A DNA stretch of 21,120 bases from a virus. Numbering within the stretch: position 1 is the stretch's first letter; the number at the start of each line of letters is the position of its first letter. The DNA is taken from the IMG/VR virus record IMGVR_UViG_3300012944_000069, positions 1-21,120 of that record. One strand, written 5' to 3'. Under the pieces are notes generated by a model. That model did no database searches and was not told the origin of the DNA. It worked only from the letters and a program-made list of their open reading frames with translations. A program made the translations under genes and the position numbers. Positions 1 through 21,120 of this stretch are shown one piece after another.

Positions 1-999
1 AACAAAGTCCTTCTGAATACGTTCAGAGAGCTTTGTCGTCTCCATCGCTTCGCCGAATATGTTTCGCTTGGCCTTGTAGACGGCGTTGTCGTCAGCAAAG
101 GCGATATCGAGATCGAGAACCGAAGCCATCCGATGACTGATGATGCCCTGCTTTGCCAAAGTATCGACAACCCTCGGTTTATGCACAGCCACATCATACT
201 CACCAAGGATTACAAGGATCGATGTCGAGGCGAAGTGAACTACTAGGAAGTTACGGAATGAAGACAGTCCTCGAAGATCACCGCCAGTTTTGGCCGAATA
301 CGAGGCAATATTCAGCGACAGTCCATCATTCGGAGCAGGATCACCGACCCATGTTCCGCTTGTTCCTTGAGACGAAATGTAGATGTCATCCGGCGATGCC
401 GTCAATCCGGCGATGATGCAGTAATTCCCAACAGTCGTGACATATCGACCAATTGGTGTGTTGACGTTCGAGCCGGTTGCGAGGTCCTGAAGATATGTAA
501 CCGTGTGCGTCTTGCTGAGCAGGATCGGCTTATCGACGCCGTTGCACACAACCAGTTCATTCCTGAACTCTGTCGTGCTGATCGTCTGTAGTCCTGACGA
601 CCAAAATCCCGGCGCACCGGGGAGGGCAGCAGCAATGGCTGCGGACCATATCAAAGTTATGGTTCCGGTGTCGGTGACTGTTACTACATGACCTGTAGTA
701 GTGAACACAACCAACTTATCTCGGAAATAGACCATCTCAAGAATGGTCCCACCAGCACCGCTAGCAGCAATGTCAAATTTGAGCTTGGTACCAAAGCGAA
801 AGCTCATCGATCCATCAAGATCGCGATGAGCATTGATCAGCTCTTTCGCAAACGAAGTATTCAGATGAACGTCTTCGTCAGCAATATTCAGACCACCAGA
901 AAAATCGTCGAGCGTCCTCTCGTCCGGGCGAGGACGGGAAGAGTGAGGTATCTTCGGTCGATTTTGTTTCTTAGATAGTCCGAATGGTGATAGGGGCAC
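1..999 (-). CDS. Tail stabilisation / tail-tube-B-like virion protein (partial, C-terminus beyond left edge)
   Basis: A reading frame of 333 codons stays open to the left edge. I start it at GTG 999-997 because GGAGG lies 8 bases upstream and no ATG exists nearby; this overlaps the preceding connector gene by 29 bases. Near the N-terminus is FSGGLN (about residues 33-38), followed by an acidic stretch and GSMSFRFGTKL. From memory this is the layout of podovirus stabilisation/tail-tubular-B proteins, where a GGLN box is followed by a GS-S-R-GT motif; they sit at the end of the connector and extend the short tail. Position after the connector gene fits. The repeat element at 685 is read here as TTGHV. 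Function is inferred from recalled motifs and gene order, not from a search. Confidence 0.6.
   Translation of the reverse strand, partial: MPLSPFGLSKKQNRPKIPHSSRPRPDERTLDDFSGGLNIADEDVHLNTSFAKELINAHRDLDGSMSFRFGTKLKFDIAASGAGGTILEMVYFRDKLVVFTTTGHVVTVTDTGTITLIWSAAIAAALPGAPGFWSSGLQTISTTEFRNELVVCNGVDKPILLSKTHTVTYLQDLATGSNVNTPIGRYVTTVGNYCIIAGLTASPDDIYISSQGTSGTWVGDPAPNDGLSLNIASYSAKTGGDLRGLSSFRNFLVVHFASTSILVILGEYDVAVHKPRVVDTLAKQGIISHRMASVLDLDIAFADDNAVYKAKRNIFGEAMETTKLSERIQKDFV
685..697. repeat. Repeat element copy 1
   Basis: TACATGACCTGTA, inside the tail protein gene, read TTGHV. Left half deviates (T at position 5). Confidence 0.85.
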
Positions 1000-1636
1000 G
1001 CCACCGACCTCCGCCATGTCCTATCACGTCCTCATTGATGTTCGCGATCAGATCGCGATAGGACGTTTCGAACAGTAGCTGAGCCTTTGCTGCCGCTGTC
1101 GGATTTATCCCGTCGTTGTCAAGCAAATGCCAAGCGGCTGCTTGTGTCATCACGACATCAGGGAAAGGCACCGTGCCAGTGGGGACGAAGTCGGCCGGCT
1201 TGGTCCGGCACTGAATGACTACATCACCTGTAGCGGTGATGGGCCAGAATTTCAAGAGACGTGTTGCTGCAAGAGCATCAGTCCACGGAAGCGGGGTGTA
1301 GTAGAGTGGATTTGATCCAGTGACGCGAAGGTGCTCACGATCGATCGGATGGACAACACGACGATCAGTGTCCTTGATATAGATACAGGCGATGTCGGTC
1401 GGATCAGCAGCGTAGGTGCTAATATTGGTTGTCACAATACCGGTCGCACCATCGAGTGTGAACGAGTAAAAATCCGTCAACCATTCCCAATAGCGCTTGA
1501 TAAAGAGCATGTCGAACTGTGCTTGAATAGCGGCTCGAACCTGCGGCTCGGTGTAGGTCTGCACACCAGTTCCAGTGACAAGGCCCACCAAGGAAATCAC
1601 AGACTGTGTAAGTTGGTTCACTGTCTTGAATGCCAT
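971..1636 (-). CDS. Head-tail connector / adaptor protein (tail-tube-A-like)
   Basis: 221 aa starting MAFKTVNQLTQ, with GGAGG 9 bases before the ATG. The length (about 200 aa), the N-terminal helical pattern with a YWEW aromatic cluster (about residues 49-52), and the position between head genes and the tail stabilisation gene fit a connector/adaptor protein that closes the portal after packaging. No catalytic motif is visible. The repeat element at 1220 is read in frame as ATGDV near the middle of the protein. The C-terminus overlaps the next gene by 29 bases, which suggests translational coupling. The assignment rests on size, order and general pattern. Confidence 0.5.
   Translation of the reverse strand: MAFKTVNQLTQSVISLVGLVTGTGVQTYTEPQVRAAIQAQFDMLFIKRYWEWLTDFYSFTLDGATGIVTTNISTYAADPTDIACIYIKDTDRRVVHPIDREHLRVTGSNPLYYTPLPWTDALAATRLLKFWPITATGDVVIQCRTKPADFVPTGTVPFPDVVMTQAAAWHLLDNDGINPTAAAKAQLLFETSYRDLIANINEDVIGHGGGRWRAPITIRTI
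1220..1232. repeat. Repeat element copy 2
   Basis: TACATCACCTGTA, inside the connector gene, read ATGDV. Left half deviates. Confidence 0.85.
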
Positions 1637-1658
1637 GATGGGCCTCCATTGGTTCGAC

Positions 1659-1671
1659 TACAGGACCTGTA
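1659..1671. repeat. Repeat element copy 3
   Basis: TACAGGACCTGTA, consensus form, in the 39-base gap between the 228-aa gene and the connector gene. Confidence 0.9.
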
Positions 1672-1675
1672 GCAA

Positions 1676-2769: not shown

Positions 2770-2782
2770 TACAGCACCTGTA
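2770..2782. repeat. Repeat element copy 4
   Basis: TACAGCACCTGTA, between the capsid gene and the 134-aa gene; symmetry extends to TGCTACAG / CTGTAGCA. Confidence 0.9.
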
Positions 2783-2796: not shown

Positions 2797-3747
2797 TCAG
2801 TTGGTGACGAAGGCGTGGGTCCGGTAGTTCTTCCAAGTGCAGAGTTGGTACTCCATGATGTACCGACGCCCGATCGCGTCTTGGTTCCACGGAGCGGTCA
2901 GCTTCTTCACCTTCATGTTGGCGCCCTTGAGGATGTGGATTTTGAGGAACTCGTCATCCACGAAGTAGGCGCTGTTCGCCGTCATGGACTCGTCGTAGAT
3001 CAGGGGAATGCCCTGATGCGTCGTGCCCTTGATGCCGAGATTGATCAGCGTCTTGCCGAAGCCGGTCGCTGCAAGGTTGATCTGCGCTTTGTCACGAGCC
3101 GCCGCCTTGTGCAGACGCCAGATGTTGCGGCCGACGAACATGACATTCGGCGACTCGTCGTCGTGGGTCAGATCGAGTAGGATATCGTCGAACGCCTCCT
3201 CGATGTTGTTCTCGTCGAGCGCGCCGGCGAAGTTGTAGGATGAAGGACGGAACATCGGCTCGTTGGCGAGGTTCAGACCACCTACAGTGCCTGTAGTCGG
3301 GTCGGAAGGAAGCAGGTTCGGAAGCCCGTTCGGGTCGGTGCCGGAGTTCAGCGAAACCGCCTTCACACGCTGGAACTTCTTGATCGCGTGTTCCAGAGCA
3401 GTGATCTTGCCTTCCATGATGTCGATGATCTTCGCATCGCCTTCGTTTTCATCCGCTTCCTGATCGGACATGATCAGACTGCCGACGAGACGGGTCATCG
3501 TGTGCAGAACCGTATCGAACTCCGACGTTTCGTCGATCGGCACGGAGTCGTAATAGGTGGCTGTGGTCACGTTGGGGTTCGAGCCGGTGATGAGCGGGTT
3601 CTCGATCTCGGGACCGCCGTCTTCCATCTCGATCTTGCCCTTGGCGGCGAGGTACGTGTAGACACCGCCTGCCAGTGTGCCCGCAAGGATCATCTTCTTG
3701 CGGGAGCGATTGGCCATCGCCTGTGCGATGGTTTCGGGAGTTGCCAT
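2797..3747 (-). CDS. Major capsid protein
   Basis: 316 aa from MATPETIAQAM. The start at 3747 is chosen because AAGAGG, which lies in the last codons of the scaffold gene, is 7 bases upstream; a longer start at 3795 has no such site. The protein follows terminase, portal and scaffold, the usual place for the coat gene, and its length suits an HK97-fold coat protein. Supporting features are a long central helical acidic region (about residues 75-105), NVMFVGRNIWRLHKAA, GIKGTTHQGIPLIYDE, and the C-terminal AIGRRYIMEYQLCTWKNYRTHAFVTN. The repeat element at 3283 is read as TTGTV in a loop-like Gly/Asn/Pro-rich stretch. The product call is based mostly on order, size and composition. Confidence 0.8.
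   Translation of the reverse strand: MATPETIAQAMANRSRKKMILAGTLAGGVYTYLAAKGKIEMEDGGPEIENPLITGSNPNVTTATYYDSVPIDETSEFDTVLHTMTRLVGSLIMSDQEADENEGDAKIIDIMEGKITALEHAIKKFQRVKAVSLNSGTDPNGLPNLLPSDPTTGTVGGLNLANEPMFRPSSYNFAGALDENNIEEAFDDILLDLTHDDESPNVMFVGRNIWRLHKAAARDKAQINLAATGFGKTLINLGIKGTTHQGIPLIYDESMTANSAYFVDDEFLKIHILKGANMKVKKLTAPWNQDAIGRRYIMEYQLCTWKNYRTHAFVTN
3283..3295. repeat. Repeat element copy 5
   Basis: TACAGTGCCTGTA, inside the major capsid gene, read TTGTV. Confidence 0.85.
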
Positions 3748-3751: not shown

Positions 3752-4867
3752 CTACCTCTTATCCAGCTGCTGTAGGTCGCGGAGCAATTCCGCACCTATC
3801 TGTTTGAACGATCTCGACGGGTCGACTGCCTTGAGTGACAGCTTTGACCCATTCGGGCGATCTCGCGAGCCATTTCTGGCCGGAGGTTCGCGGAGTTGAC
3901 GTTCGCCACCACGGCGTTGATCGTCATTTCCACGTCTTTGTTTGTTGTTCTTTTCGAGAGCCTTCCTAGCTCCCTTCTGCAACTCGATCCAAATCTGTTG
4001 CAGAGACATATGCGGCCAGTCGGTTTTTGCCTTGGCGATAAGGCCCTGATAACGAACCGCCCCAGGATTGGCCAAGAGGAATGCCTGTGCTTCCTCTTTC
4101 GCAGCGTTGCGGCGAGCGGTTGTCACCTCGCCTTCCCGCTTCAAACGAGCAGTTTCCTGCTGCTCCACGACGTACTTCGCGACTTCTCTCGCGTCTACAG
4201 GAGCTGTAACTCCAAGGTCTGATAGGTCGGTGCCAGCAAGATGCAACTTTGTCAAGATGCTTCTGATGGCAGCCTTGGGATCGATCTTGGCATGGGCCAT
4301 AAGCTCGACCGCTTCCTTGGCTTCTTGAGCTGTCAAGCCCTTTGAGGCACCGAAGTTGGCGGTATCCTTGAGTTCGTTGTACTGCGCAAGCAGTTGACGA
4401 CCGGCGGAAGCGAGGGTCTGAGCGTGTTGAACGAGACCCTTGGAGATATCCTGTTGCTCCTTCCAAGCCTTCTTGAGCTTGGACCAAGCATTGCGAGGAC
4501 GACCACGTGCGAAGAGGACCTTGCCGTCGACATCGACGATATCGCCTGCGCGGTTCTGCTGGTACTGGAAGTTCTTGTCGGGGTCATCGTCGTCAACTAC
4601 AGGGTCTGTAGTTGGCTTGCGTTTGTCGTCGGCAGTGATGTCGTCGTTCTCGTCGTCAACGCCATCATCGCCGGTGTCATCGTCGCCAGCGTCGTTGTCG
4701 TCGGTATCGTCGCCGGTATCATCGTCGTCTTCGCCGATATCACCCTTGTCGTCATTCGAGCCGTCGAAGTCGTCATCGCCTTCGCCGGGATCAGTCCCTA
4801 GCGGCTCGTCTTCATGCTCCGTTAACTGCTGGAGCAGGTTCTTGTGGGCTTCCGGTTCCCGTGCCAT
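3752..4867 (-). CDS. Capsid scaffold protein
   Basis: 371 aa. Roughly the first 95 residues are extremely Asp-rich (runs such as GEDDDDTGDDTDDNDAGDD), followed by a Lys/Arg/Gln helical region with coiled-coil character and a basic, Arg/Asn/Gly-rich C-terminus. An acidic low-complexity head and helical body with a basic tail that can contact coat protein are typical of phage scaffolds, and the gene sits between portal and major capsid genes. It overlaps the portal gene by 56 bases and ends 4 bases before the coat start, supplying its ribosome site. Two repeat elements are inside: 4196 read as TAPV and 4598 read as TTDPV, both in linker-like sequence. Confidence 0.75.
   Translation of the reverse strand: MAREPEAHKNLLQQLTEHEDEPLGTDPGEGDDDFDGSNDDKGDIGEDDDDTGDDTDDNDAGDDDTGDDGVDDENDDITADDKRKPTTDPVVDDDDPDKNFQYQQNRAGDIVDVDGKVLFARGRPRNAWSKLKKAWKEQQDISKGLVQHAQTLASAGRQLLAQYNELKDTANFGASKGLTAQEAKEAVELMAHAKIDPKAAIRSILTKLHLAGTDLSDLGVTAPVDAREVAKYVVEQQETARLKREGEVTTARRNAAKEEAQAFLLANPGAVRYQGLIAKAKTDWPHMSLQQIWIELQKGARKALEKNNKQRRGNDDQRRGGERQLREPPARNGSRDRPNGSKLSLKAVDPSRSFKQIGAELLRDLQQLDKR
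4196..4208. repeat. Repeat element copy 6
   Basis: TACAGGAGCTGTA, inside the scaffold gene, read VTAPV. Confidence 0.85.
4598..4610. repeat. Repeat element copy 7
   Basis: TACAGGGTCTGTA, inside the scaffold gene, read TTDPV; symmetry extends to CAACTACAG / CTGTAGTTG. Confidence 0.85.
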
Positions 4868-6836
4868 CTGTGCTTACGCCTTTTGTTAAATTCGCCTGAA
4901 TTTCTTGAGTCAGCATTGCCCAATCTGCGTCCTTAACCACAAGTCCACTGAACGCTGTCTGTAACATACGAACCATCAGCGTCATGGTTGTGCCGGGTGC
5001 TGCTTGACCCACCTGACCGAGCGCTTGAGCAATTTGCAGAGCTTCCTGCTTCTTGAACTCAGACGTCGGTTTCTCGATGCTACCGGGTGCGATTTCCATC
5101 CGATAGGATTGATTGAACTCATCGACAGACATCTGTACAAACGCTGATGCCTTCTCTTCACCTACAAGTGCTGTAATGTCTTCGCTGGTATATTTCGAGA
5201 TCAGAATTTCGGTCATTGACCACGTAACGTCTTCCAAAGCTTCCTCGACGGTATCGACAAGAACACCGGAGGTCTGCTGTTTGTTCTGTGCATAGAACTG
5301 AACCTGCTGGTTAGTCGTGTTCGTCTTGAACTGCTGACCACGATCGATTTCAGACTGGTTCGCTGCTCGATCGACAGCTGAACGAAGGGCTGTCGTATCG
5401 TAGAGTTCCTTTGCCTGTGCTGGTGGAGGGACAAGCATCTCCAAGACCTCTGCGATCTTCTTGTCGGGATCGGTGCTGACGCCGAAGGATGCAACCTGTT
5501 TCGGATTGCGAAGGTGTCGAACGAGCTTCTGAACCTCTTTCCCATCGACGGCTTGCTTGTTGTATACGATCGTATTGAATGCCGCATCGCGAATACGCTT
5601 GGCCTCACGATTGATACGATTGATCTCGTTGACCTGACCGATGTAGAAGCTGACTTCACCGGGCTGAATAACTGACTCAATGGGCTCGCCGAATGCGATG
5701 GCGAAGTGACGGAAGTATCGGCTCAGGCCCATGTCATCTTCCCAAGCGTAGAGCGGATGCTCCCATTGCTCGGAACTGAACAGATAGTGCCGACGGAGTG
5801 GCTTGTCGTAATACATATAGCAACGGATCGTGTCCTTGAGATTGAGGTCACGAATTTCCTTCGGAGACGAGTTCAGCACTGTGTCGACGATGGACTGTTT
5901 AGTTACAGCACCTGTAGTACCGTCGTCGCTATCATTGGTCGGCGTTCTACCAGTGGTGATCTTCTTGTTGGCTCGAAGGTAGTAACAGCCTTCTTCCTCG
6001 TCGTGAACGTAATATTTGTTCATGATATAGGATCGATCGTAGTCGATCTCTTCGGCCACAAAGTCGGAGTCGGTGAAATCGATCATCGTGCAGCCCTTAG
6101 ACACAATGATACGATTGGGCAGGACGTTTGACACGGCCATGCCCTTGTTGATCAGTGAAGGAAGCTTCTCGTGGACCACTTCGAGCTGTGCGTAGAGGTC
6201 CTCGATCTCAGACTTCTTCTTCGCCTTGGCGAGCTTCTTCTCGATGGCTTGAATAGCATTGACGGCTTCCTGTCTGGAGCCATCCATCGGCTGATAGTCA
6301 AGCCTGATGATGCCAAAGTTGGTCATCTGACCATGGGCGATCCATCGACGGATTTTCGCTCGCATGTTCATGCCCGGCCACGTCTTCTTGTTCATCAAGA
6401 AGTCGAGGACGTATTCGAGACACTCGCCGAGCTTCGACTCCGACGTGACATCAGTGAACTCGACATGCGGGTTCTGCATGTATGTCGTCCGCATCATCGT
6501 CTTGATGTTATTGCGAATGATGTTCTCGTCAGCATCACTGTCGAAATGCAAATTGTAGTCTTCTTCGAGGTTTAGATTACCCTCGTTGCCAGACTTCTGG
6601 TATTCCTCGAAAATCCGATCCCACTTGGCATGGATGATCTCATATGAGGTCTTGCCCTGCTCGATGTTCCGCTGAATGAACTTCGACTGAGCCCTCGTGA
6701 AGCGAATTGACATGCCCTCGGCTGGCATCATTCCCTCTACAGGGTCTGTAGTACCATAGCCGGGTTTGGTGGACGGGTCGTCTTCGAGAACTGTGTCGAG
6801 AACGGCGTTTGATGCTTCTACTCGGCCTCGTGCCAT
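4812..6836 (-). CDS. Portal protein
   Basis: 674 aa from MARGRVEASNAV, with GGAG 9 bases upstream; it overlaps the terminase gene by 19 bases. Portal proteins form the dodecameric ring through which DNA enters the head. Length, position directly after large terminase and before scaffold, the long amphipathic helix with Gln/Asn-rich segments (about residues 480-520) and the Gly/Pro/Ala-rich disordered C-terminus all fit a podovirus-size portal. Three repeat elements lie inside: 6738 (TTDPV, residues about 29-33), 5904 (TTGAV, in a Ser/Asp/Gly linker) and 5163 (TALV). This is the highest number of copies in one gene here. Confidence 0.8.
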   Translation of the reverse strand: MARGRVEASNAVLDTVLEDDPSTKPGYGTTDPVEGMMPAEGMSIRFTRAQSKFIQRNIEQGKTSYEIIHAKWDRIFEEYQKSGNEGNLNLEEDYNLHFDSDADENIIRNNIKTMMRTTYMQNPHVEFTDVTSESKLGECLEYVLDFLMNKKTWPGMNMRAKIRRWIAHGQMTNFGIIRLDYQPMDGSRQEAVNAIQAIEKKLAKAKKKSEIEDLYAQLEVVHEKLPSLINKGMAVSNVLPNRIIVSKGCTMIDFTDSDFVAEEIDYDRSYIMNKYYVHDEEEGCYYLRANKKITTGRTPTNDSDDGTTGAVTKQSIVDTVLNSSPKEIRDLNLKDTIRCYMYYDKPLRRHYLFSSEQWEHPLYAWEDDMGLSRYFRHFAIAFGEPIESVIQPGEVSFYIGQVNEINRINREAKRIRDAAFNTIVYNKQAVDGKEVQKLVRHLRNPKQVASFGVSTDPDKKIAEVLEMLVPPPAQAKELYDTTALRSAVDRAANQSEIDRGQQFKTNTTNQQVQFYAQNKQQTSGVLVDTVEEALEDVTWSMTEILISKYTSEDITALVGEEKASAFVQMSVDEFNQSYRMEIAPGSIEKPTSEFKKQEALQIAQALGQVGQAAPGTTMTLMVRMLQTAFSGLVVKDADWAMLTQEIQANLTKGVSTDGTGTGSPQEPAPAVNGA
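5163..5175. repeat. Repeat element copy 8
   Basis: TACAAGTGCTGTA, inside the portal gene, read ITALV. Left half deviates (A). Confidence 0.8.
5904..5916. repeat. Repeat element copy 9
   Basis: TACAGCACCTGTA, inside the portal gene, read TTGAV. Confidence 0.85.
6738..6750. repeat. Repeat element copy 10
   Basis: TACAGGGTCTGTA, near the portal N-terminus, read TTDPV. Confidence 0.85.
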
Positions 6837-8389
6837 CTTAAATGCTCCGGGGTGATGACGGGTTTGTGGAAGTGGAGTTCGGATGCTGCGGGAAGCTTAG
6901 AAAGTCCATACTTCAAAGCATCACAAAAGTCATCACCGCCATCGCGAGGTTCGTCTACTCGCTCGCCCGTGCTGGTGTCTGTTTTCCAGAAGTACGCAAC
7001 CATTTCGTTCTCAATAAAGGTCAAATCGTCGGCAAAATAGATCATCGGACCTTCATCTTTGGTCGAAAGGTAGTGCATCCCGGTTCGAGGGATTAAATAG
7101 TCGGTCACTTTCGCAATTCCAGACAGTTTATCATTCTGTCCGGGGTAAAAGTTCAGTTCAAACCGGTCTGCGAGCAGTTTTTTGATGGTTGTGGTGCCAC
7201 CTTTGCCCTTCCCATCGATAACAGTACGTCGAAATATCGCAGGGTCGGCCCAAATCGGGTTATCCCACGACATTCCGTCCATATACTGCTCACGAAGTTC
7301 GAGAATACGCTCACCGATCTGGTCGATGTTCATATTTGCTCGATGAAAACCGTCGATGATGAAGACTCGGCCACGATAGTCGACGAAGCCGATGCAATAG
7401 CACGATGGAACAGCCTGTCCGTAGTCGAATATCTCGAAGTTCTGGAACAACGAGTTCGATCGAATGGCTTCGTTCAGCATTGAGATCATATGCTGACGAG
7501 GAATGAAGTGCGTTTCTACTCCGAAAGCAGGATAGACCAAGCCTTCGTAGGCTGCCCACTTACCCATAAGGTAGCGTTCACGCATTTGACCTCGATAGGT
7601 CGACTCCAATCCTGCGATAAAGTCTGGATCGAGGTTATGTTTGTTCTCGTATGTCGACCCTTCAAAGATTTCGATGATGGGTTCGAGAGTAGTCCGATCG
7701 ACGAGAAGATCATCACCTACAAGTCCTGTAGCACGCCAATGGTGATATGGTTTTACGAGACGTTTGTAACACCAGTTGGCTGTTGGGTTGAGAGTGAGTA
7801 GCATGTACCGAGGACCGGTCATAGGCATGGTTTCATCATCGCCTTTGTATGGCGTGGAACCACGGAGACGTCCCATGAGGTCGAGGAAATCTTTGTACTG
7901 AATTTCAGGGTCTTCGAGCTGGTCGACGACTATCCAGTCGTATGTCGCTGATAGAAGATTGGACGTGGTTTGTCCTTCAAGGGATTGTTTGCCCCGTTGA
8001 GCGATATACCGAAAGTTAATCGTGGTCCCATTGCGCATGATAGCGGTATTGTCATCCTTGGTAGGGAACCGCTTGATATGGTCTCTCGGACACCACTTAA
8101 AGAACTCTTTGCGGATCGTGTCGTTGAGCTTGGGATAGGTTGCTCGTGCAATGAGCCCATTGGAGCCGGGGTAACTGTATGCGAATTGTAACGCCTTAAC
8201 ACAACACGCCGCCGTTTTCCCATTGCCGAACCCTCCGCCGAGAAGTTGTATCTTCCTGCGACAATTGAGGAACTGCTGGTGCATCCCTCCTTCGATGATA
8301 CTGTAATTAGGCAATGTGAAACCACTTGTTGTTATATTCGAGGACTCTGTTCGTAGAAGGATAGATTGGTTTCCACTGAGGATATCCAC
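6818..8389 (-). CDS. Terminase large subunit (packaging ATPase / nuclease)
   Basis: Up to 523 aa. Walker A is clear as GGGFGNGKT (residues 51-59), a Walker B-like segment WIVVDQLED is at about 152-160, and TLNP (199-202) fits the coupling motif. The nuclease domain shows FDYGQ with Asp322 and a C-terminal DGGDDFCDALKYG containing Asp490. The protein pumps phage DNA into the prohead through the portal encoded next door and cuts it. The start is uncertain: ATG 8389 has only a weak GGTGG before it, and starts nearer Walker A (for example TTG 8320 or ATG 8284) are possible. The repeat element at 7718 is read as ATGLV. Confidence 0.9.
   Translation of the reverse strand: MDILSGNQSILLRTESSNITTSGFTLPNYSIIEGGMHQQFLNCRRKIQLLGGGFGNGKTAACCVKALQFAYSYPGSNGLIARATYPKLNDTIRKEFFKWCPRDHIKRFPTKDDNTAIMRNGTTINFRYIAQRGKQSLEGQTTSNLLSATYDWIVVDQLEDPEIQYKDFLDLMGRLRGSTPYKGDDETMPMTGPRYMLLTLNPTANWCYKRLVKPYHHWRATGLVGDDLLVDRTTLEPIIEIFEGSTYENKHNLDPDFIAGLESTYRGQMRERYLMGKWAAYEGLVYPAFGVETHFIPRQHMISMLNEAIRSNSLFQNFEIFDYGQAVPSCYCIGFVDYRGRVFIIDGFHRANMNIDQIGERILELREQYMDGMSWDNPIWADPAIFRRTVIDGKGKGGTTTIKKLLADRFELNFYPGQNDKLSGIAKVTDYLIPRTGMHYLSTKDEGPMIYFADDLTFIENEMVAYFWKTDTSTGERVDEPRDGGDDFCDALKYGLSKLPAASELHFHKPVITPEHLRWHEAE
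7718..7730. repeat. Repeat element copy 11
   Basis: TACAAGTCCTGTA, inside the large terminase gene, read ATGLV. Left half deviates (A). Confidence 0.85.
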
Positions 8390-8570
8390 CCATCCACCCC
8401 ATCGGAGGATGACTCAGACTGATCGCCACGATCATTCCTCGAAATGAAACGAACTGCCACGGCTGATCAACGTGTGGCAGTTCGTCATATGATGGAGCGA
8501 TGTGTTGCACTACAGGTCCTGTATCGATTAACGATTTATGCTTGTAGCGCCCCAACGTAGGCCGTGCCAT
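8307..8570 (-). CDS. Possible 87-aa protein between spike and terminase genes
   Basis: An open frame starting MARPTLGRYKHKS, overlapping the spike gene end by 35 bases and the terminase start by up to 83 bases. In favour: composition is protein-like (many Trp, Tyr, Pro, Gly), and the repeat element at 8511 is read as DTGPVV, the same frame used in most genuine genes here. Against: no ribosome site precedes the ATG, and a perfect 11-bp inverted repeat (8450-8484) inside looks like a terminator. If real, terminase probably starts later than 8389. No family recognised. Confidence 0.4.
   Translation of the reverse strand: MARPTLGRYKHKSLIDTGPVVQHIAPSYDELPHVDQPWQFVSFRGMIVAISLSHPPMGWMGGYPQWKPIYPSTNRVLEYNNKWFHIA
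8450..8484 (-). terminator. Perfect inverted repeat after the spike gene
   Basis: CGAACTGCCAC / GTGGCAGTTCG with a 13-base loop. On the - strand it is followed by TTTCATTTC, so partial termination between spike and terminase genes is possible. It conflicts with the 87-aa ORF being important. Confidence 0.4.
8511..8523. repeat. Repeat element copy 12
   Basis: TACAGGTCCTGTA, just past the spike gene; read DTGPV if the 87-aa ORF is real. Confidence 0.9.
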
Positions 8571-10782: not shown

Positions 10783-11066
10783 CACCGAACTCCTACAAGT
10801 CCTGTAGCAGTCGTGCCAGTAGAGTTGACACGCTTGCAGTAGTCAGTGATCCGCTGACCGGCGACAACGGTGTATGATACGACCGTATCATCCTGCTCGA
10901 CGATCGCAACAGTTCCCGCACCCCCAACAACGATCTCGCGAGGAGGCGTCGTGAAATTGATCGTATCCGAAGGTGTGATTGCGAAGTTGTCTCGTGATGC
11001 GTTGCTTCGGACGTAATGAGGATCAATGATGGACTCAGGACGTCCAAGGTCTTTCACGATAGCCAT
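10782..11066 (-). CDS. Spike base protein, resembling the RCAP_Rcc01079-type family
   Basis: 94 aa with AAGGAG before the ATG. From residue about 29 it reads AITPSDTINFTTPPREIVVGGAGTV-type sequence, and it ends in a V-A-G-Q-R-I turn and RVNSTGTTATGLV. From memory, the order TPSD - T/PR-h-h-VGGAG - hydrophobic strands - R-V--TGTTATGLV matches small proteins annotated as spike base in Rhodobacter-type gene transfer agents and related phages, where they anchor a beta-helix spike. The next gene is such a spike and its start overlaps this stop by one base (TGATG), giving translational coupling. The repeat element at 10794 coincides with the C-terminal ATGLV motif and abuts the spike ribosome site. 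Confidence 0.65.
   Translation of the reverse strand: MAIVKDLGRPESIIDPHYVRSNASRDNFAITPSDTINFTTPPREIVVGGAGTVAIVEQDDTVVSYTVVAGQRITDYCKRVNSTGTTATGLVGVR
10794..10806. repeat. Repeat element copy 14
   Basis: TACAAGTCCTGTA, end of the spike base gene, read ATGLV; abuts the spike ribosome site. Left half deviates (A). Confidence 0.85.
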
Positions 11067-11689: not shown

Positions 11690-11718
11690 GGTCCCACTAC
11701 AGGGCCTGTAGTGGGACC
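11690..11718. repeat. Perfect 29-base palindrome around a repeat element
   Basis: Arms GGTCCCACTACAGG and CCTGTAGTGGGACC around one central base, between the first late gene and small terminase. It is the most extended copy of the element and could also fold in the mRNA. Confidence 0.8.
11698..11710. repeat. Repeat element copy 15
   Basis: TACAGGGCCTGTA, centre of the 29-base palindrome at 11690-11718. Confidence 0.9.
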
Positions 11719-12154: not shown

Positions 12155-12183
12155 TCGCTACAGGAGCTGTAGTACGATGTCAA
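12155..12183 (-). promoter_or_regulatory. Leftward promoter of the late operon with embedded operator
   Basis: On the - strand a perfect TTGACA (12183-12178) is followed by exactly 6 bases, then the repeat element (12171-12159), whose TA starts the hexamer TAGCGA at a 17-base spacing. The -35 is perfect but the -10 is weak. It lies just upstream of the first late gene (12123). A protein on the element would block polymerase, or an activator could compensate for the weak -10. Confidence 0.6.
12159..12171. repeat. Repeat element copy 16
   Basis: TACAGGAGCTGTA, between -35 and -10 of the leftward late promoter. Confidence 0.9.
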
Positions 12184-12602: not shown

Positions 12603-12627
12603 CATCATACTACAAACGCTGTAGTAA
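12599..12627 (+). promoter_or_regulatory. Rightward promoter 1 with embedded operator
   Basis: TTGACA at 12599-12604, 6 bases, repeat element 12611-12623, hexamer TAGTAA/AGTAAT at a 17-18 base spacing. The -35 overlaps the stop of the 64-aa gene. Confidence 0.55.
12611..12623. repeat. Repeat element copy 17
   Basis: TACAAACGCTGTA, between -35 and -10 of rightward promoter 1. Left half deviates (A). Confidence 0.85.
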
Positions 12628-12713: not shown

Positions 12714-12742
12714 TTGCATTTGCACTACAAAAGCTGTAGTGT
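12714..12742 (+). promoter_or_regulatory. Rightward promoter 2 with embedded operator
   Basis: TTGCAT at 12714-12719, 6 bases, repeat element 12726-12738, hexamer TAGTGT at a 17-base spacing. Same geometry as promoter 1, about 115 bases downstream. Confidence 0.5.
12726..12738. repeat. Repeat element copy 18
   Basis: TACAAAAGCTGTA, between -35 and -10 of rightward promoter 2. Left half deviates (A). Confidence 0.85.
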
Positions 12743-12832: not shown

Positions 12833-12861
12833 TTGACAATCAACTACATGTCCTGTATTGA
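12833..12861 (+). promoter_or_regulatory. Rightward promoter 3 with embedded operator
   Basis: TTGACA at 12833-12838, 6 bases, repeat element 12845-12857, hexamer TATTGA at a 17-base spacing. Best -10 of the set. It would read into the phosphatase gene at 13015. Confidence 0.6.
12845..12857. repeat. Repeat element copy 19
   Basis: TACATGTCCTGTA, between -35 and -10 of rightward promoter 3. Left half deviates (T). Confidence 0.85.
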
Positions 12862-12987: not shown

Positions 12988-13016
12988 TTATCATCCAACT
13001 ACAGGACCTGTACCAT
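12988..13016 (+). promoter_or_regulatory. Promoter-like remnant overlapping the phosphatase start
   Basis: TTATCA, 6 bases, repeat element, then TACCAT at a 17-base spacing. The last two bases of TACCAT are the first two of the ATG at 13015, so a transcript from here would lack the start codon. Probably an operator site with a decayed promoter. Confidence 0.25.
13000..13012. repeat. Repeat element copy 20
   Basis: TACAGGACCTGTA, 2 bases before the phosphatase ATG; its AGGA may act as ribosome site. Confidence 0.9.
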
Positions 13017-13425
13017 GGCTAAGCCAATCCTCTGCCTCGACTTCGACGGTGTTATTCATTCATATGACTCAGGCTGGAAAGGAGCAGAAGTAATATCCGA
13101 TCCAGTCACTCCCGGCTTCTTCGAATGGCTTGAAACGGCGCGCGATGTCTTTGACGTCGTGATCTATTCATCGAGATCATCCGATACCGAGGGCATCAAC
13201 GCTATGCAAGCATGGTTCCGTAAAGAGTATCATGCTCGCTACGGAACCACATTCAATGATTTCGCCGACATCGGACTGAGATTTGCCCACAAGAAACCAG
13301 CAGCCTTTCTCACCGTCGATGATCGCGCGCTATGCTTCTCTGGAAACTGGTCAGATTACAGTCCTGAGACGCTGCTCAAGTTCAAACCATGGAACAAGCG
13401 AGCTAAGTCCGATCAACCATTCTGA
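13015..13425 (+). CDS. HAD-superfamily phosphatase-like hydrolase
   Basis: 136 aa, MAKPILCLDFDGVIHSY at the N-terminus. LDFDG supplies the HAD motif I (Asp9 nucleophile and Asp11), VIYSSR (about 49-54) fits motif II with Ser52/53, Lys94 in KKPAAF fits the motif III lysine, and TVDDRA (Asp102/Asp103) fits the acidic metal-binding motif IV. All are in the right order in a protein short enough to lack a large cap. Related phage proteins act on phosphate esters, for example nucleotides or nucleic-acid ends; the substrate here is unknown. The repeat element at 13000 ends 2 bases before the ATG, and its AGGA may serve as the ribosome site. Confidence 0.8.
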   Translation: MAKPILCLDFDGVIHSYDSGWKGAEVISDPVTPGFFEWLETARDVFDVVIYSSRSSDTEGINAMQAWFRKEYHARYGTTFNDFADIGLRFAHKKPAAFLTVDDRALCFSGNWSDYSPETLLKFKPWNKRAKSDQPF

Positions 13426-13486: not shown

Positions 13487-13708
13487 ATGCAGATGCCCCA
13501 GAAATCCTATCTGAAGTCGCATCTCTACAGCAGCTGTAGTTGGTTCGGAATACAACGAATGGCATTGATCGATATGGAGGATGCGAGCTTCATCGCGCAG
13601 GACGGATTTGTGCTTGTGTCGAATCAAGAGATTTGGACGAGGGTGGTGATGATTGAGTGCGAGACCGCGCGTGCGCACGATGCGAAATTGTCCGGAAATC
13701 TTCATTAG
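13487..13708 (+). CDS. Possible 73-aa protein
   Basis: Frame MQMPQKSYLKSHLYSS with AAGGA 7 bases before the ATG. The middle looks protein-like (FGIQRMALIDMEDASFIAQDGFVLVS). The internal repeat element at 13526 is read here as YSSCS, unlike the Thr-X-X-Val frame used in nearly all other genes, which lowers my confidence. It follows the phosphatase gene by 61 bases in the same direction. No family recognised. Confidence 0.45.
   Translation: MQMPQKSYLKSHLYSSCSWFGIQRMALIDMEDASFIAQDGFVLVSNQEIWTRVVMIECETARAHDAKLSGNLH
13526..13538. repeat. Repeat element copy 21
   Basis: TACAGCAGCTGTA, inside the possible 73-aa gene, in the unusual frame YSSCS. Confidence 0.85.
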
Positions 13709-13710: not shown

Positions 13711-13739
13711 TTGACAACTAGAATGACACAGTGCATACA
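13711..13739 (+). promoter_or_regulatory. Promoter ahead of a possible small RNA
   Basis: Perfect TTGACA (13711-13716), 17 bases, then CATACA. The repeat element (13736-13748) covers the -10 and start region rather than the spacer. An ATGACA with 7 bases to the element is also present at 13723. Confidence 0.4.
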
Positions 13740-13748
13740 GATGCTGTA
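13736..13748. repeat. Repeat element copy 22
   Basis: TACAGATGCTGTA, over the -10/start region of the possible small RNA promoter. Confidence 0.85.
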
Positions 13749-13922: not shown

Positions 13923-14111
13923 TTGATACAACCGGGGGACTACCGGGGGTTGTATGGACAGCACAGCATCGCGCGCGATGGGAAGATAATCCTACAACCT
14001 GATCACAAGTTCGTGATACAACCTATGATCGGTGTTACTACAGGACCTGTAGTGTATGATGATCCTTGTCAACAGAAGGACACAGCCAATGCCAAGGGTT
14101 CGTATCTATAA
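13923..14111 (+). CDS. Doubtful short protein with repeated Gln-Pro motif
   Basis: A 62-codon frame from a TTG codon with no visible ribosome site. It contains IQP, LQP and IQP at in-phase spacings because the DNA word TACAACC recurs at 13927, 13993 and 14017. The repeat element at 14039 is read as TTGPVV, the frame preferred in true genes, which is the main reason to list it. It may equally be a non-coding regulatory stretch. Confidence 0.3.
   Translation: MIQPGDYRGLYGQHSIARDGKIILQPDHKFVIQPMIGVTTGPVVYDDPCQQKDTANAKGSYL
14039..14051. repeat. Repeat element copy 23
   Basis: TACAGGACCTGTA with symmetry to ACTACAGG / CCTGTAGT; TATGAT follows at 14055. Confidence 0.9.
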
Positions 14112-14565: not shown

Positions 14566-14578
14566 TACAGGACCTGTA
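14566..14578. repeat. Repeat element copy 24
   Basis: TACAGGACCTGTA, intergenic, 11 bases after the two-tier hairpin. Confidence 0.9.
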
Positions 14579-14959: not shown

Positions 14960-14972
14960 TACAGGTCCTGTA
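14960..14972. repeat. Repeat element copy 25
   Basis: TACAGGTCCTGTA, after the zinc-ribbon gene; flanks GGGTTC / GAACCC lengthen the hairpin with one bulge. Confidence 0.9.
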
Positions 14973-15502: not shown

Positions 15503-15856
15503 ATGGCTATCAATCTAATCATCAAAGGCTCATTCGATGATGCAATCAATGCTGCGTCATCGCGCGGTATCATCCTTCGTCAACTACAATCAACCGGTCA
15601 TGGTGAGACTTTGGCAATCACTGGCGACAGGAATTTAGTTGTTGTCATAGAATGGTTCAATGCTGACTTCGCACCGATCAAGCTCGGTGAAAGCCTTGGC
15701 TATGCTGCTGGATCACTACTTCACTATTCACAGCCAGAGGCGCGATCTCATATGGCTTTATACGTTGGCGATGAGGATCAATTCAGCGATGATGACTTCG
15801 CTACAGACCCTGTAGCTGATCAGCCTGATCTGTCTGCGGATATGATTGACGGCTGA
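15503..15856 (+). CDS. Hypothetical protein
   Basis: 117 aa from MAINLIIKGSFDDAIN. ATG 15503 is chosen over an upstream start at 15434 because AAGGA precedes it and the upstream part crosses a conserved leader hairpin. The first 70 residues look like a small alpha/beta domain (INLIIKGSF, ILRQLQSTGHGETLAITGD, LVVVIEWFN); the end is acidic (EDQFSDDDFATDPVADQPDLS). The repeat element at 15802 is read there as ATDPV. The motif RQL--TGHGE recurs in the gene at 16534. Confidence 0.65.
   Translation: MAINLIIKGSFDDAINAASSRGIILRQLQSTGHGETLAITGDRNLVVVIEWFNADFAPIKLGESLGYAAGSLLHYSQPEARSHMALYVGDEDQFSDDDFATDPVADQPDLSADMIDG
15802..15814. repeat. Repeat element copy 26
   Basis: TACAGACCCTGTA, inside the gene at 15503, read ATDPV. 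Confidence 0.85.
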
Positions 15857-16363: not shown

Positions 16364-16537
16364 ATGCTCACCAAAGCTCAATTGGACAAAGCTCTATCAC
16401 AGACGCTTGAAGCTCAGCGTATCCTTACAGGGATACAGCAGCTGATCGCACTGCCATATGGGATTGCTCCACTAGCTGACACGTTCGATTTGATACAGGG
16501 TCTGTATGCAGAATTGAAACAGGAAGACAAGTCATGA
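16364..16537 (+). CDS. 57-aa helical protein
   Basis: MLTKAQLDKALSQTLEAQRI start with AAAGGA upstream and a stop overlapping the next gene (ATGA at 16534-16537), so the two are coupled. The sequence is almost fully helical, with heptad-like Leu/Ile spacing. The repeat element at 16494 is read as IQGLY near the C-terminus, the less usual frame. No function recognised. Confidence 0.65.
   Translation: MLTKAQLDKALSQTLEAQRILTGIQQLIALPYGIAPLADTFDLIQGLYAELKQEDKS
16494..16506. repeat. Repeat element copy 27
   Basis: TACAGGGTCTGTA, inside the 57-aa gene, read IQGLY (less usual frame). Confidence 0.85.
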
Positions 16538-16804: not shown

Positions 16805-16817
16805 TACAGGTCCTGTA
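16805..16817. repeat. Repeat element copy 28
   Basis: TACAGGTCCTGTA, between the 86-aa and 342-aa genes; symmetry extends to TCCA / TGGA with one mismatch. Confidence 0.9.
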
Positions 16818-17897: not shown

Positions 17898-17910
17898 TAC
17901 AGGTCCTGTA
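17898..17910. repeat. Repeat element copy 29
   Basis: TACAGGTCCTGTA, two bases after the stop codon of the 342-aa gene, just before its 3' hairpin. Confidence 0.9.
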
Positions 17911-17911
17911 A

Positions 17912-17939
17912 TCAGGCCCGACAATCCCGTCGGGCCTGA
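17912..17939 (+). terminator. Hairpin after the 342-aa gene, weak terminator
   Basis: 11-bp perfect stem (TCAGGCCCGAC / GTCGGGCCTGA), loop AATCCC, but only CTCTTT after it. It may attenuate reading into the acidic-protein gene or protect the 3' end of the upstream message. Confidence 0.5.
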
Positions 17940-18403: not shown

Positions 18404-18490
18404 ATGCGAGGGGATACTGCTACAGGCTCTGTAGTTGAAAGCCCTCTGATCACACACACGCTCCACCACTACCAAAGCATTCGGGGATAA
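18404..18490 (+). CDS. 28-aa peptide carrying the repeat element in frame
   Basis: MRGDTATGSVVESPLITHTL and 8 more residues. AGGAGGAA lies 4 bases before the ATG, about the strongest ribosome site in the window, and a good promoter lies 46 bases upstream. The repeat element at 18421 is read as ATGSVV, the frame used in real genes. It may be a leader peptide for the 122-aa gene that follows or a short functional protein. Confidence 0.5.
   Translation: MRGDTATGSVVESPLITHTLHHYQSIRG
18421..18433. repeat. Repeat element copy 30
   Basis: TACAGGCTCTGTA, inside the 28-aa gene, read ATGSV. Confidence 0.85.
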
Positions 18491-18572: not shown

Positions 18573-18941
18573 ATGCCACAGCAATTCACAAACGATATCG
18601 AAACTAAATACTCTGGTCTTATCAGGGATGCCAACTTTGTTGTATCGGCATATCATGCTGACAAATCGCCTGCTCTTCAGATCATGTCTCCTGAAGGTGA
18701 AGCGGTACTTACAGCATCTGTATGCATGGATATTCCGCCGGAGGAAGATTGTATCATCATCAAAGATTGGTCGGAGAATGAAGGTATCGAGGCTGTATTG
18801 ATCAAAGCAGGTCTCATCGAGGCCAACAATGATCCTCGACTTCATGCATCAGGTTTTGTTCTTGCTGGCGAGTTTAAGATGATTGGTAAATTGCTCGAAG
18901 CTTGGCAGAAGTTCAAGGCAACTGAACTACAGTACCTGTAG
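18573..18941 (+). CDS. Hypothetical protein with a 'KDWSENEG' block
   Basis: 122 aa from MPQQFTNDIETKYSG with GGAGG 7 bases upstream. The core ALQIMSPEGEAVLTASVCMD, then IIIKDWSENEGIEAVLIKAGLI, is of a type I recall from small phage proteins of unknown role. Two repeat elements touch it: 18710 read as LTASV inside, and 18928 whose last bases form the TAG stop (CTG TAG), so operator and stop codon are superimposed. Confidence 0.7.
   Translation: MPQQFTNDIETKYSGLIRDANFVVSAYHADKSPALQIMSPEGEAVLTASVCMDIPPEEDCIIIKDWSENEGIEAVLIKAGLIEANNDPRLHASGFVLAGEFKMIGKLLEAWQKFKATELQYL
18710..18722. repeat. Repeat element copy 31
   Basis: TACAGCATCTGTA, inside the 122-aa gene, read LTASV. Confidence 0.85.
18928..18940. 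repeat. Repeat element copy 32
   Basis: TACAGTACCTGTA; its last bases form the TAG stop of the 122-aa gene. Confidence 0.9.
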
Positions 18942-18955
18942 TTGGGGCGATCAGT

Positions 18956-19057: not shown

Positions 19058-19283
19058 AGTCAAAATGTATCGCGACAAGGCTGGTGAACTCCACAATGAT
19101 CGGCTTTCTGCTGATGTCGGCGATGCTCGTTACACTGTTGAGGAAGTTCTGATCAATCGCGATTGGAAGGATATTGAAGCTAAGGAGATCGTTGGCTTCC
19201 TTCTCTCTAATCGGCCGATAGTACAGGACCTGTATCGAGCCATTGATAAGAAAGCTAGAGCGGAGGTTAAGGCCAATGTTTAG
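19047..19283 (+). CDS. Hypothetical protein
   Basis: 78 aa from MATEVKMYRDKAG; AAAGGAA lies about 8 bases upstream, and the longer frame back to 18942 is rejected because it lacks a ribosome site. Pattern: short strand, YTVEEVLINRDWKDIEAKEIVGFLL, and a Lys/Arg/Ala helix at the end. The repeat element at 19222 is read as VQDLY (less usual frame). The end overlaps the next gene by 8 bases. No family recognised. Confidence 0.6.
   Translation: MATEVKMYRDKAGELHNDRLSADVGDARYTVEEVLINRDWKDIEAKEIVGFLLSNRPIVQDLYRAIDKKARAEVKANV
19222..19234. repeat. Repeat element copy 33
   Basis: TACAGGACCTGTA, inside the 78-aa gene, read VQDLY (less usual frame). Confidence 0.85.
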
Positions 19284-19458: not shown

Positions 19459-20078
19459 CTGACCAGTCCCAATCTCGTGTCAAACTCTTTCACGTCCAAG
19501 TCCTTCTCCCCGAGGCTCTCAATTGGACAACCCTATCCATTATCGCTGAAACTCATTGGGCTGCTCGTCACTGTGCCGAGCATTTTGGCATTGTCGGGCT
19601 GGCCTTCGAGGTCCCAATCAATCCTCAACCATTCGACGATTACGAAGAGGGCATCTTCCACCAAAACTCCCATCGCGCCGCTGGCGTGGTCCCCGCTACA
19701 GGGCCTGTAGCAACATCAAGGAAACCTCAAATGACCAAGAAATCGAAAGAAGGCGACCAGACTGATCCGAATGTCGATGTTTCGACTGATCTCGGTCCAG
19801 TCTACATCGATCCGATAGAGGCGAAGATCACGGAAGCTCTCGCTGCGGCGCAGGCCGAGTTCGGCCGTGAGCTTTCCGATGCCGAAGTCCAGTCCATTCG
19901 TGATCATGTCCGCAAGGAGCACAACGAGGCTGTCGCCGAGGACGACGAGAAGGCTCGTTTGGCATTCAGCACTGCCGTGTTTGATGAGGGCGGTCCATCG
20001 GCCAATCGGCTTCTTCAGACTCTGTACAAGAAGCATGTCCTCAGCTGGATTGATGTGAAGCACATTCTCGGCGACTAA
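19455..20078 (+). CDS. 207-aa two-part protein, possibly a fusion or two start sites
   Basis: MTDQSQSRVKLFHVQVLL start, coupled to the gene before. The first about 92 residues form one unit (LNWTTLSIIAETHWAARHCAEHFG). The last 115 residues begin with their own MTKKSKEGD (ATG 19731, preceded by AAGGAAA) and are acidic and helical with strongly biased codons like the gene at 16868. Between the two lies the repeat element at 19697, read as ATGPV. Either a single protein, two fused genes, or a gene with an internal second start. No family recognised. Confidence 0.6.
   Translation: MTDQSQSRVKLFHVQVLLPEALNWTTLSIIAETHWAARHCAEHFGIVGLAFEVPINPQPFDDYEEGIFHQNSHRAAGVVPATGPVATSRKPQMTKKSKEGDQTDPNVDVSTDLGPVYIDPIEAKITEALAAAQAEFGRELSDAEVQSIRDHVRKEHNEAVAEDDEKARLAFSTAVFDEGGPSANRLLQTLYKKHVLSWIDVKHILGD
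19697..19709. repeat. Repeat element copy 34
   Basis: TACAGGGCCTGTA, at the junction of the two parts of the 207-aa protein, read ATGPV. Confidence 0.85.
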
Positions 20079-20111
20079 CCTCGCCGAGCCAAAACTTCTC
20101 TTGCAAAAGAG

Positions 20112-20172
20112 CCGAACTCCTGATAGTGTCTTGTTTAATAACAAATGTTAAGAAGACATATCAGGGGTTCGG
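20112..20172 (+). repeat. Long imperfect hairpin
   Basis: About 20-bp arms (20112-20132 and 20153-20172) with one mismatch and one bulge, enclosing a 20-base AT-rich loop, in the gap before the gene at 20256. No T-run follows. Confidence 0.55.
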
Positions 20173-20228
20173 GCGGTGAAAAATCTCACAGAACTAATCT
20201 GTCTGTCGTCTCACGTCTCTAGTCTCAC

Positions 20229-20242
20229 TACAGCACCTTGTA
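20229..20242. repeat. Repeat element copy 35, variant
   Basis: TACAGCACCTTGTA, 14 bases, one inserted T in the right half; intergenic, before the gene at 20256. Confidence 0.7.
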
Positions 20243-20255
20243 TTGGAAACCAATC

Positions 20256-20468
20256 ATGTCTCGCATCCGGCTCAACTTGGGCCGTCAGCAGCCGTTTGTC
20301 GATCGCGTACTCGGTGGCTGGCGGTTTTGGATAATCTACAACTCTGACGTCTCAGCAGGAACGTATTACGAGCTTTGGGATACTGGTGAAGTCAATCTCG
20401 TAAAGGCTTCTGCAACTCAAACGGAGGATATCATTTATGTTAGAAAAGCTGATCCAACTGAAAAATAG
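20256..20468 (+). CDS. 70-aa hypothetical protein
   Basis: MSRIRLNLGRQQPFVDRVLG, with GGAAACC just upstream. Aromatic-rich strands (WRFWIIYNSD, TYYELWDTGEVNL) suggest a small beta-rich fold. The last 32 bases overlap the next gene, whose ribosome site is inside this one. No function recognised. Confidence 0.55.
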   Translation: MSRIRLNLGRQQPFVDRVLGGWRFWIIYNSDVSAGTYYELWDTGEVNLVKASATQTEDIIYVRKADPTEK

Positions 20469-20811
20469 CCTCTCGCCTACTGGTGGTGGCAACACCGATC
20501 CGGTCATGTTTGACTACAGGTTCTGGAGTGAAGCTCTGACCATCGTCACCAAGCAGCGCGAGAATGCCAAGATCGACATGCTCAAGCTCAGCACCGATCC
20601 AACCAAGCCGGGCGTGATCTTGAAGTCCAAGCTCTATCGTCTCGTCTTCAGTGAGTCCAAGCCGATTAGGACATTCGATCTCGAAAGGATGATCGATATC
20701 CTTGTGAAGAAATATCCCAAGGATCGATTGTTCATTCGTGAAGCTGCCCTCAAAGCCGAGGTCGACGGCTCTACGAAGAAGACCTACAAGGTGGAGCGGA
20801 ACGATGACTAA
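20437..20811 (+). CDS. 124-aa helical hypothetical protein
   Basis: MLEKLIQLKNSLSPTGGGNT with GGAGG 9 bases upstream. The body is helical and basic (WSEALTIVTKQRENAKIDMLKL, RMIDILVKKYPKDRLFIREAALKAEV) and uses the same biased codons as the gene at 16868. A decayed copy of the repeat element (TACAGGTTCTGGA, 20515-20527) is read as YRFW. It ends in GATGACTAA, which also starts the next gene. Confidence 0.65.
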   Translation: MLEKLIQLKNSLSPTGGGNTDPVMFDYRFWSEALTIVTKQRENAKIDMLKLSTDPTKPGVILKSKLYRLVFSESKPIRTFDLERMIDILVKKYPKDRLFIREAALKAEVDGSTKKTYKVERNDD

Positions 20812-21016
20812 GTTCACCTTCGTTCACTGTGGGGAATTTGATGTCAATCCTCATGCTGTAGCGTTTGTGTCAGAGAATGACACAGAAGTCATCATAACAC
20901 TGACAAGCACACTTCAGCTTCACCTTCCAAAACATATCGGCGATATTGTCGTTCGCGATCGCGTTGCGGTCGTCGACGCAATCGAGCGATCCATGATTGT
21001 CTCCGACGATGACTAA
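20804..21016 (+). CDS. 70-aa hypothetical protein
   Basis: MTKFTFVHCGEFDVNPHAVA start inside the end of the previous gene (8-base overlap); the longer frame from 20738 is rejected because it reads the previous gene out of frame. Predicted beta strands VAFVSEND, EVIITLTSTLQLHL, DIVVRDRVAVVDAI suggest a small beta domain. Ends ERSMIVSDDD in GATGACTAA. No function recognised. Confidence 0.55.
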   Translation: MTKFTFVHCGEFDVNPHAVAFVSENDTEVIITLTSTLQLHLPKHIGDIVVRDRVAVVDAIERSMIVSDDD

Positions 21017-21120
21017 ATCATCATTCGATGTTGATACAGGCTCTGTAGTTAAGAAGCCTCGTAAGCGCCAGTCTCACCATACCCTCGAACAGCGCAGAGA
21101 TCAGCGCGCTCGTGCTCTCA
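21009..21120 (+). CDS. Start of a basic protein, cut by the right edge
   Basis: MTKSSFDVDTGSVVKKPRKR, then a His/Gln/Arg-rich stretch to the edge. Starts within the end of the previous gene through the same GATGACTAA junction. The repeat element at 21035 is read as DTGSV. Too little is present for a product call. Confidence 0.5.
   Translation, partial: MTKSSFDVDTGSVVKKPRKRQSHHTLEQRRDQRARAL
21035..21047. repeat. Repeat element copy 36
   Basis: TACAGGCTCTGTA, inside the right-edge partial gene, read DTGSV. Confidence 0.85.

Follow-up and report, generated by a model that had tools for sequence, protein, structure and literature searches.

Dispersed palindromes that differ between related phages, and the F19 protein family as their candidate binder

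The window and its dispersed palindrome

The stretch of viral DNA analyzed in this work (IMG/VR record IMGVR_UViG_3300012944_000069, a 21-kb fragment of 21,120 bases, here named the window) consists of two gene arms separated by a control region. The left arm has genes for a terminase large subunit and an SU10-like adaptor, along with one for a capsid protein assigned to a known phage family; the replication/early arm encodes, among others, a protein of a family here designated F19. The subject of the present analysis is the palindromic word TACAN4CTGTA, which recurs throughout the window, and its possible recognition by F19. The window by itself is too short to show a genome-wide spread, and the analysis was extended to related phages (see below).

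TACAN4CTGTA is present as 35 exact + strand copies in the window, as compared to 0.05 expected (mean over both strands in 100 dinucleotide shuffles), and both the number of copies and its excess over chance agree with an earlier examination of the letters alone (the sequence-only reading), as does the existence of one further copy with a 1-base insertion (TACAGCACCTTGTA, at 20229). When the flanks are included, the fuller consensus becomes CTACAG-N3-CTGTAG with an odd-centred core of 13 bases, a C preceding 28 of the 35 copies, a G following 25 of them and 27 being symmetric at positions 5/9; the probe form of this palindrome is CTACAGGACCTGTAG. Leaving the ninth base free (TACAN5TGTA) adds no copy, and the word is therefore sharply defined; allowing one mismatch to TACAN5TGTA yields 8 extra places, with 3.8 expected for all matches. 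In the eight asymmetric copies (at 685, 1220, 5163, 7718, 10794, 12611, 12726 and 12845), it is the CTGTA half that is kept and the TACAG half that varies, as read on the + strand.

The copies are distributed over both arms with a mean spacing of 599 bp and a longest gap of 2003 bp, matching the values of near 0.6 kb and 2 kb given by the sequence-only reading, and this spacing is more even than random (coefficient of variation, CV, 0.65 versus 0.96, p = 0.003). Several of them are grouped in the inter-arm control region, where the sites at 12611 and 12845 represent the only two clear cases of a site within a promoter-like spacer, others being weaker. According to the curated gene list, 18 of the 35 copies are located in gaps, while non-coding DNA constitutes 20% of the window (binomial p = 3e-5). 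The earlier split of 16 copies in gaps and 20 inside genes was close to this count and missed the strong preference for gene junctions.

Different words in related phages

DNA-level relatives of the window were not found among 50,697 phage records, the closest of which show approximately 23-27% protein identity, and no relative of the capsid protein was retrieved from 84,980 bacterial and archaeal species. Relatives were gathered by means of capsid and terminase scans of IMG/VR, several being of 43-48 kb and near-complete, and a further scan with the DNA polymerase of the clade (a UDG-PolA fusion) yielded 80 loci; a scan with a 17-base palindrome returned mostly contigs with 1-5 copies, together with two true relatives. 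Gene calls came from a simple caller. Three of the assemblies (G007, G009 and G020) possess terminal repeats of exactly 127 bases, which is probably the assembler overlap length and indicates circular assemblies.

Each of five near-complete close relatives contains 51-87 copies of TACAN5TGTA, a count that the sequence-only reading had proposed and that bears out its description of the element as genome-wide. The same reading had named equal density in unrelated phages and loss in close relatives as observations that would count against the element. With respect to the former, T7 contains 1 copy and LUZ24, Mx8 and ctMlz233 contain 0, none of these unrelated phages carrying a comparable palindrome; regarding the latter, close relatives keep the word, and it is the more distant members of the clade that have lost it and carry other dispersed palindromes instead, equal to it in density and found without prior assumption.

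Besides the TACA class, seven further palindrome classes were found in the clade, each with an odd-centred and symmetric consensus: GTTACAA-n3-TTGTAAC (G028), GTTACAT-n3-ATGTAAC (G029), TTAAA-n5-TTTAA (G036), TGTGTGA-n-TCACACA (G022, G025, G040 and G041), TGTATGA-n-TCATACA (G020), TGTTTGA-n-TCAAACA (G037 and G039) and AACTTTAA-n-TTAAAGTT (G030, the AACTTTAAn class). The site sets TGTGTGAnTCACACA and TGTATGAnTCATACA differ by a single symmetric base. Every phage carries 30-90 copies of one specificity.

Sites are strongly enriched between genes in the TGTG and TATG classes, where 23/30, 27/37 and 24/32 are intergenic as compared to about 3 expected, and long genes are nearly free of them (per genome, 23/30 versus 2.6 expected in G022 and 27/37 versus 3.2 in G025; for G009 the values are 29/60 versus 6.7). 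Intergenic enrichment in the TACA class is 2.3- to 4.3-fold. Many sites lie precisely in the gap that separates a stop codon from the next start codon, examples being TAACTACAGGAGCTGTAATG and TAGTGTGAGTCACACATG. Junctions are moreover co-occupied between genomes of different site class in 275 pairs as compared to 213 +/- 11, with none of 1000 permutations reaching this number, and the same places thus carry different words. Within genes, the portal site at 6738 has a counterpart at the matching place in G009, and G005 contains the matching peptide TDPV.

The location at stop/start junctions raises the question of whether the sites act at the RNA or translational level, in ribosome binding, processing or as a hairpin. 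The strict half of asymmetric copies is on the same side in 8/8 window copies and in 5/5 of G009, being mixed in G004-G007; when asymmetric copies of eight genomes are pooled, it lies upstream with respect to transcription in 108 versus 59 cases, to which in-gene copies contribute 77 versus 50, compatible with codon background, and intergenic copies 31 versus 9 (31/40), a departure from equality. This intergenic skew, together with the GGAG that some copies (such as TAACTACAGGAGCTGTAATG) hold at Shine-Dalgarno distance from an ATG, would suit an RNA element; the skew could stem from the built-in GGAG itself through Shine-Dalgarno overlap. Considering that the centre of TGTGTGAnTCACACA is 1 nt, so that no hairpin of that form can close, that sites also occur within genes and in the inter-arm control region, and that the words vary symmetrically between relatives, as for a protein dimer on DNA, an RNA-level function is regarded as very improbable.

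F19 as candidate binder

Gene families were defined by an all-against-all BLAST of the gene calls of all genomes. F19 is represented in 16/16 near-complete genomes with strong sites and in 0/4 relatives with weak or no sites (G031, G034, G035 and G044), and is the sole family with that presence pattern, the next best family reaching 9/16. It is also the protein that best tracks site divergence when compared with 14 other shared proteins (Spearman 0.79), the partial correlation being 0.59-0.66 after correction for polymerase, capsid, helicase or portal. These relationships bear on the notion that a nucleoid or regulatory protein of the host binds the sites, each phage carrying the word of its host: hosts could differ between the site classes, but site divergence follows the phage proteins and F19 most closely, near relatives share a word, and a single specificity per genome occurs at a density unlike that of a host regulon, which makes a host binder improbable.

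F19 proteins are 285-383 amino acids long and diverge down to approximately 25% mean identity; yet arginine R175 is invariant in 17/17 aligned sequences. It lies in the basic segment YNNRKRLN, whose form differs by site class (NNRKRLN with TACAG, SNRKRLN with TTACAA, AQRNALN with TTACAT, SRRVALN with TTAAA and xR[ST]N with TGTGTGA). The structure model of F19 (mean predicted local distance difference test score 80, core approximately 93) contains a helix at 113-126, beta strands at 130-135 and 140-145 forming a hairpin (130-145), and a long basic helix at 165-194 bearing R175, in addition to C-terminal helices and low-confidence or disordered ends. The predicted helix and hairpin resemble a winged helix, residues 112-172 aligning weakly with ArsR/MarR winged-helix repressors (Z 2.5-3.3). 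F19 has no Pfam match, two models gave no match in PDB or BFVD with E < 0.001 (the VIA-align rows being weak), there were no matches in 50,697 phage records, and a TGTG-class F19 used to scan viral contigs retrieved only itself.

A site is located 18-71 bp upstream of F19 in 11/16 genomes, sites border the gene on both sides in most of them, and in most relatives the stop codon, a site and a hairpin stand together behind it. From these sequence comparisons, F19 is likely to be the binder of the site set. A search for a helix-turn-helix (HTH) or ParB-like protein had been suggested by the sequence-only reading; the candidate F19 is encoded within the window itself (Table 1), and the HTH proteins encountered, namely the small Cro-type proteins G005_024 and G009_030 and the LuxR-type protein of G005, are not common to the TACA-class genomes and were rejected. 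The terminase small subunit was likewise rejected, since every genome has it, even where strong sites are missing.

A further candidate in place of F19 is a small ribbon-helix-helix (RHH) protein of 66-95 amino acids (Arc/NikA-like) encoded upstream of the helicase. It is present at approximately 54 clade loci, many of these having TGTG, TATG or TTTG sites, it gives weak Pfam matches to NikA-like/TacA1, and one of its strand residues seemed to track site class. The protein was nevertheless rejected, and a role as binder appears most unlikely: it was not detected in three cases with strong sites (the TACA class, G030 and G036), and G034 and G044 encode it although their sites are weak or lacking. 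The RHH family is fast-evolving, and in most clade members other than those of the TACA class its gene immediately precedes the helicase (e.g. L081:12382-12582, L078:2087-2305, L074:10436-10642 and about 50 more).

Table 1 Palindromic sites and associated features in the window
Feature	Position	Strand	Remark
Site TACATGACCTGTA	685..697	.	
Site TACATCACCTGTA	1220..1232	.	
Site TACAGGACCTGTA	1659..1671	.	gene junction
Site TACAGCACCTGTA	2770..2782	.	gene junction
Site TACAGTGCCTGTA	3283..3295	.	within major capsid gene
Site TACAGGAGCTGTA	4196..4208	.	
Site TACAGGGTCTGTA	4598..4610	.	
Site TACAAGTGCTGTA	5163..5175	.	
Site TACAGCACCTGTA	5904..5916	.	
Site TACAGGGTCTGTA	6738..6750	.	near N-terminus of portal gene
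Site TACAAGTCCTGTA	7718..7730	.	within terminase large subunit gene
Site TACAGGTCCTGTA	8511..8523	.	
Site TACAGAGTCTGTA	8791..8803	.	
Site TACAAGTCCTGTA	10794..10806	.	
Site TACAGGGCCTGTA	11698..11710	.	gene junction, upstream of terminase small subunit
Site TACAGGAGCTGTA	12159..12171	.	upstream of first leftward gene
Site TACAAACGCTGTA	12611..12623	.	in spacer of promoter-like TTGACA-17-TAGTAA
Site TACAAAAGCTGTA	12726..12738	.	divergent control region
Site TACATGTCCTGTA	12845..12857	.	in spacer of promoter-like TTGACA-17-TATTGA
Site TACAGGACCTGTA	13000..13012	.	just before rightward open reading frame (ORF) at 13015
Site TACAGCAGCTGTA	13526..13538	.	
Site TACAGATGCTGTA	13736..13748	.	
Site TACAGGACCTGTA	14039..14051	.	
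Site TACAGGACCTGTA	14566..14578	.	
Site TACAGGTCCTGTA	14960..14972	.	
Site TACAGACCCTGTA	15802..15814	.	
Site TACAGGGTCTGTA	16494..16506	.	
Site TACAGGTCCTGTA	16805..16817	.	centred 57 bp before the F19 start; candidate operator for autoregulation
F19 gene, 342 aa	16868..17896	+	candidate cognate binder of the dispersed palindromes
Site TACAGGTCCTGTA	17898..17910	.	directly after F19 stop codon
Strong hairpin (GC-rich inverted repeat)	17913..17938	+	just past F19 stop codon and site 17898
Site TACAGGCTCTGTA	18421..18433	.	
Site TACAGCATCTGTA	18710..18722	.	
Site TACAGTACCTGTA	18928..18940	.	gives part of TAG stop codon of ORF 18573-18941
Site TACAGGACCTGTA	19222..19234	.	
Site TACAGGGCCTGTA	19697..19709	.	
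1-base-insertion copy TACAGCACCTTGTA	20229..20242	.	
Site TACAGGCTCTGTA	21035..21047	.	

Comparison with known systems

The sequence-only reading had likened the element to the stoperators of mycobacteriophage L5. L5 and Bxb1 possess 24 and 34 stoperators, respectively, which are dispersed and mainly intergenic, the consensus changing from one relative to another along with the repressor (PMC3029335, PMC6550527). The clade likewise carries tens of near-identical dispersed sites that are mainly intergenic (about half being in genes in the TACA class), and site consensus and candidate protein vary together between relatives. Cluster A stoperators are, on the other hand, asymmetric 13-mers oriented with transcription and bound by a repressor that is a two-domain monomer, the phages being temperate (PMC9283540), whereas the sites of the clade are palindromic, number 30-90 per genome and in the TACA class often lie in genes, F19 is without a match to known families, and no match to integrase (PF00589), serine recombinase (PF07508) or ParA-type ATPase (PF13614) was obtained in the 16 near-complete genomes, a negative that holds for these families. 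Since asymmetry and lysogeny, which define the stoperator group, are missing here, the likeness holds in concept and membership of the stoperator group is not supported.

In the Bacillus prophage SPbeta, the non-canonical phage repressor MrpR acts on the repeated element SPBRE at about ten sites (PMC10516654); there, as would be the case for F19, a phage-encoded protein is paired with an element repeated across the genome, SPbeta differing in being temperate, in the promoter location of SPBRE and in the tyrosine-recombinase fold of MrpR. The lytic T1-like phages T1, TLS and Stevie contain 16-20 dispersed intergenic repeats of 21-22 bp whose function and binder are not known (PMC4319613, PMC11447400), and which are asymmetric, oriented with transcription and far fewer, whereas the clade has palindromic sites with a candidate binder.

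The Escherichia coli MatP/matS system employs a 13-bp site, with 23 matS in 800 kb, and a dedicated protein (PMC3330122). It resembles the clade in having a dispersed 13-bp site with its own protein, which in the clade is a candidate, and differs in being chromosomal and far sparser. The DNA-binding part of MatP is a ribbon-helix-helix, whereas F19 is predicted to be winged-helix-like and an RHH protein is not present wherever sites are (the TACA class, G030 and G036 yielded none). ParB/parS differs in its ParA-type ATPase, for which the 16 genomes gave no PF13614 match; a partition site, as considered in the sequence-only reading, thus has no support so far, nor has a packaging mark, the sites being dispersed and not clustered. 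None of the compared systems joins palindromic sites at such density, differing sets in relatives and a binder without known family, and the view that this word belongs to no described system held up, the word not being a described sequence.

Transcription control versus genome organisation

The explanation we favour, and to which we assign about an even chance, is that the palindromes are sites of a phage-encoded F19-type protein, with one specificity per phage, exerting stoperator-like control of transcription at gene junctions. Each phage would very probably encode its own version of F19, binding its 30-90 sites as a symmetric dimer, and the site set would change together with F19; physical binding, dimer form and transcriptional role are here inferred. 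The F19 gene lies in the replication/early arm and is bracketed by sites, on which grounds it is proposed that F19 probably controls its own synthesis. When bound at junctions and in the inter-arm control region, F19 would most likely block or punctuate transcription in the fashion of stoperators; a regulator blocking at many places would fit the junction location, the cluster in the control region, the two sites in promoter-like spacers and the sites around the F19 gene.

Several observations weigh against this explanation. The absence of F19 is not clean, which weakens the presence/absence argument: three of the four F19-less genomes, namely G034, G035 and G031 (L207-L209, L210-L212 and L204-L206), do carry dispersed palindromes, which are weaker and differ in geometry, the centre being even or the spacing of two kinds (TAACn3-4GTTA, ACACGTGT and TTATAnnTATAA), and a profile comparison of the large early proteins of F19-less genomes gave a marginal F19 match in G035, so that in these genomes the role may fall to a different protein or to an F19 that has diverged. 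Other shared proteins also track site divergence, as phylogeny predicts, and phylogeny is part of every correlation. No general -35/-10 offset relative to the sites and no systematic promoter association were found, for which reason the sites were rejected as promoter elements. A repressor of the lysogeny type is not expected considering that integrase, recombinase and ParA in the 16 genomes, as well as capsid relatives in the bacterial and archaeal species, were not retrieved; no prophage was found. Finally, about half of the TACA-class sites lie within genes, and the evenness in this class (CV 0.53-0.65 versus approximately 0.97) exceeds the need of gene-control sites.

This evenness speaks for an organising role, according to which F19 or another phage protein folds, marks or segregates the phage DNA much as MatP/matS or ParB/parS do, the even spacing being functional. 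The long genes filled with sites, the symmetry of the sites and the lack of detected lysogeny genes would be in keeping with such a role, as would the low-confidence or disordered ends of the F19 model and its C-terminal helices, which could serve in multimerisation. TGTG and TATG sites are, however, mostly at junctions with long genes nearly empty, no ParA was found, and coding constraint and gene length can yield part of the evenness. An organiser is therefore considered unlikely, and transcription control is favoured over genome organisation. A related proposal, that a lytic clade maintains its 30-90 symmetric sites, read by a protein of its own, in order to organise or mark its genome and not for lysogenic repression, entire site sets having been rewritten several times to new specificities along with the protein, is held to be possible though doubtful.

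Where one regulator serves dozens of targets, it should be bound to a fixed site, since any change breaks all targets at once. In the clade, such a set exists in at least eight versions, each paired with a candidate protein, by which the evolution of a many-site regulon becomes directly testable. The findings also point to a genome-wide layer of control or organisation in phages where lysogeny genes were not detected, which is also an open question for the T1-like repeats, and F19, a family without database relatives, would gain a probable function.

Other genes of the clade

The ORF at 13015-13425 of the window and its homologues in G005 and G007 are HAD-type phosphatase-like (HAD_SAK_2, below cut-off) and occur in some members of the clade. 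A scan of 70 right-arm proteins of G005 and G009 (L058, L060, L070 and L072) produced one match to an Acb2/Tad1 hairpin domain (counter-defence) and one to a dATP/dGTP diphosphohydrolase.

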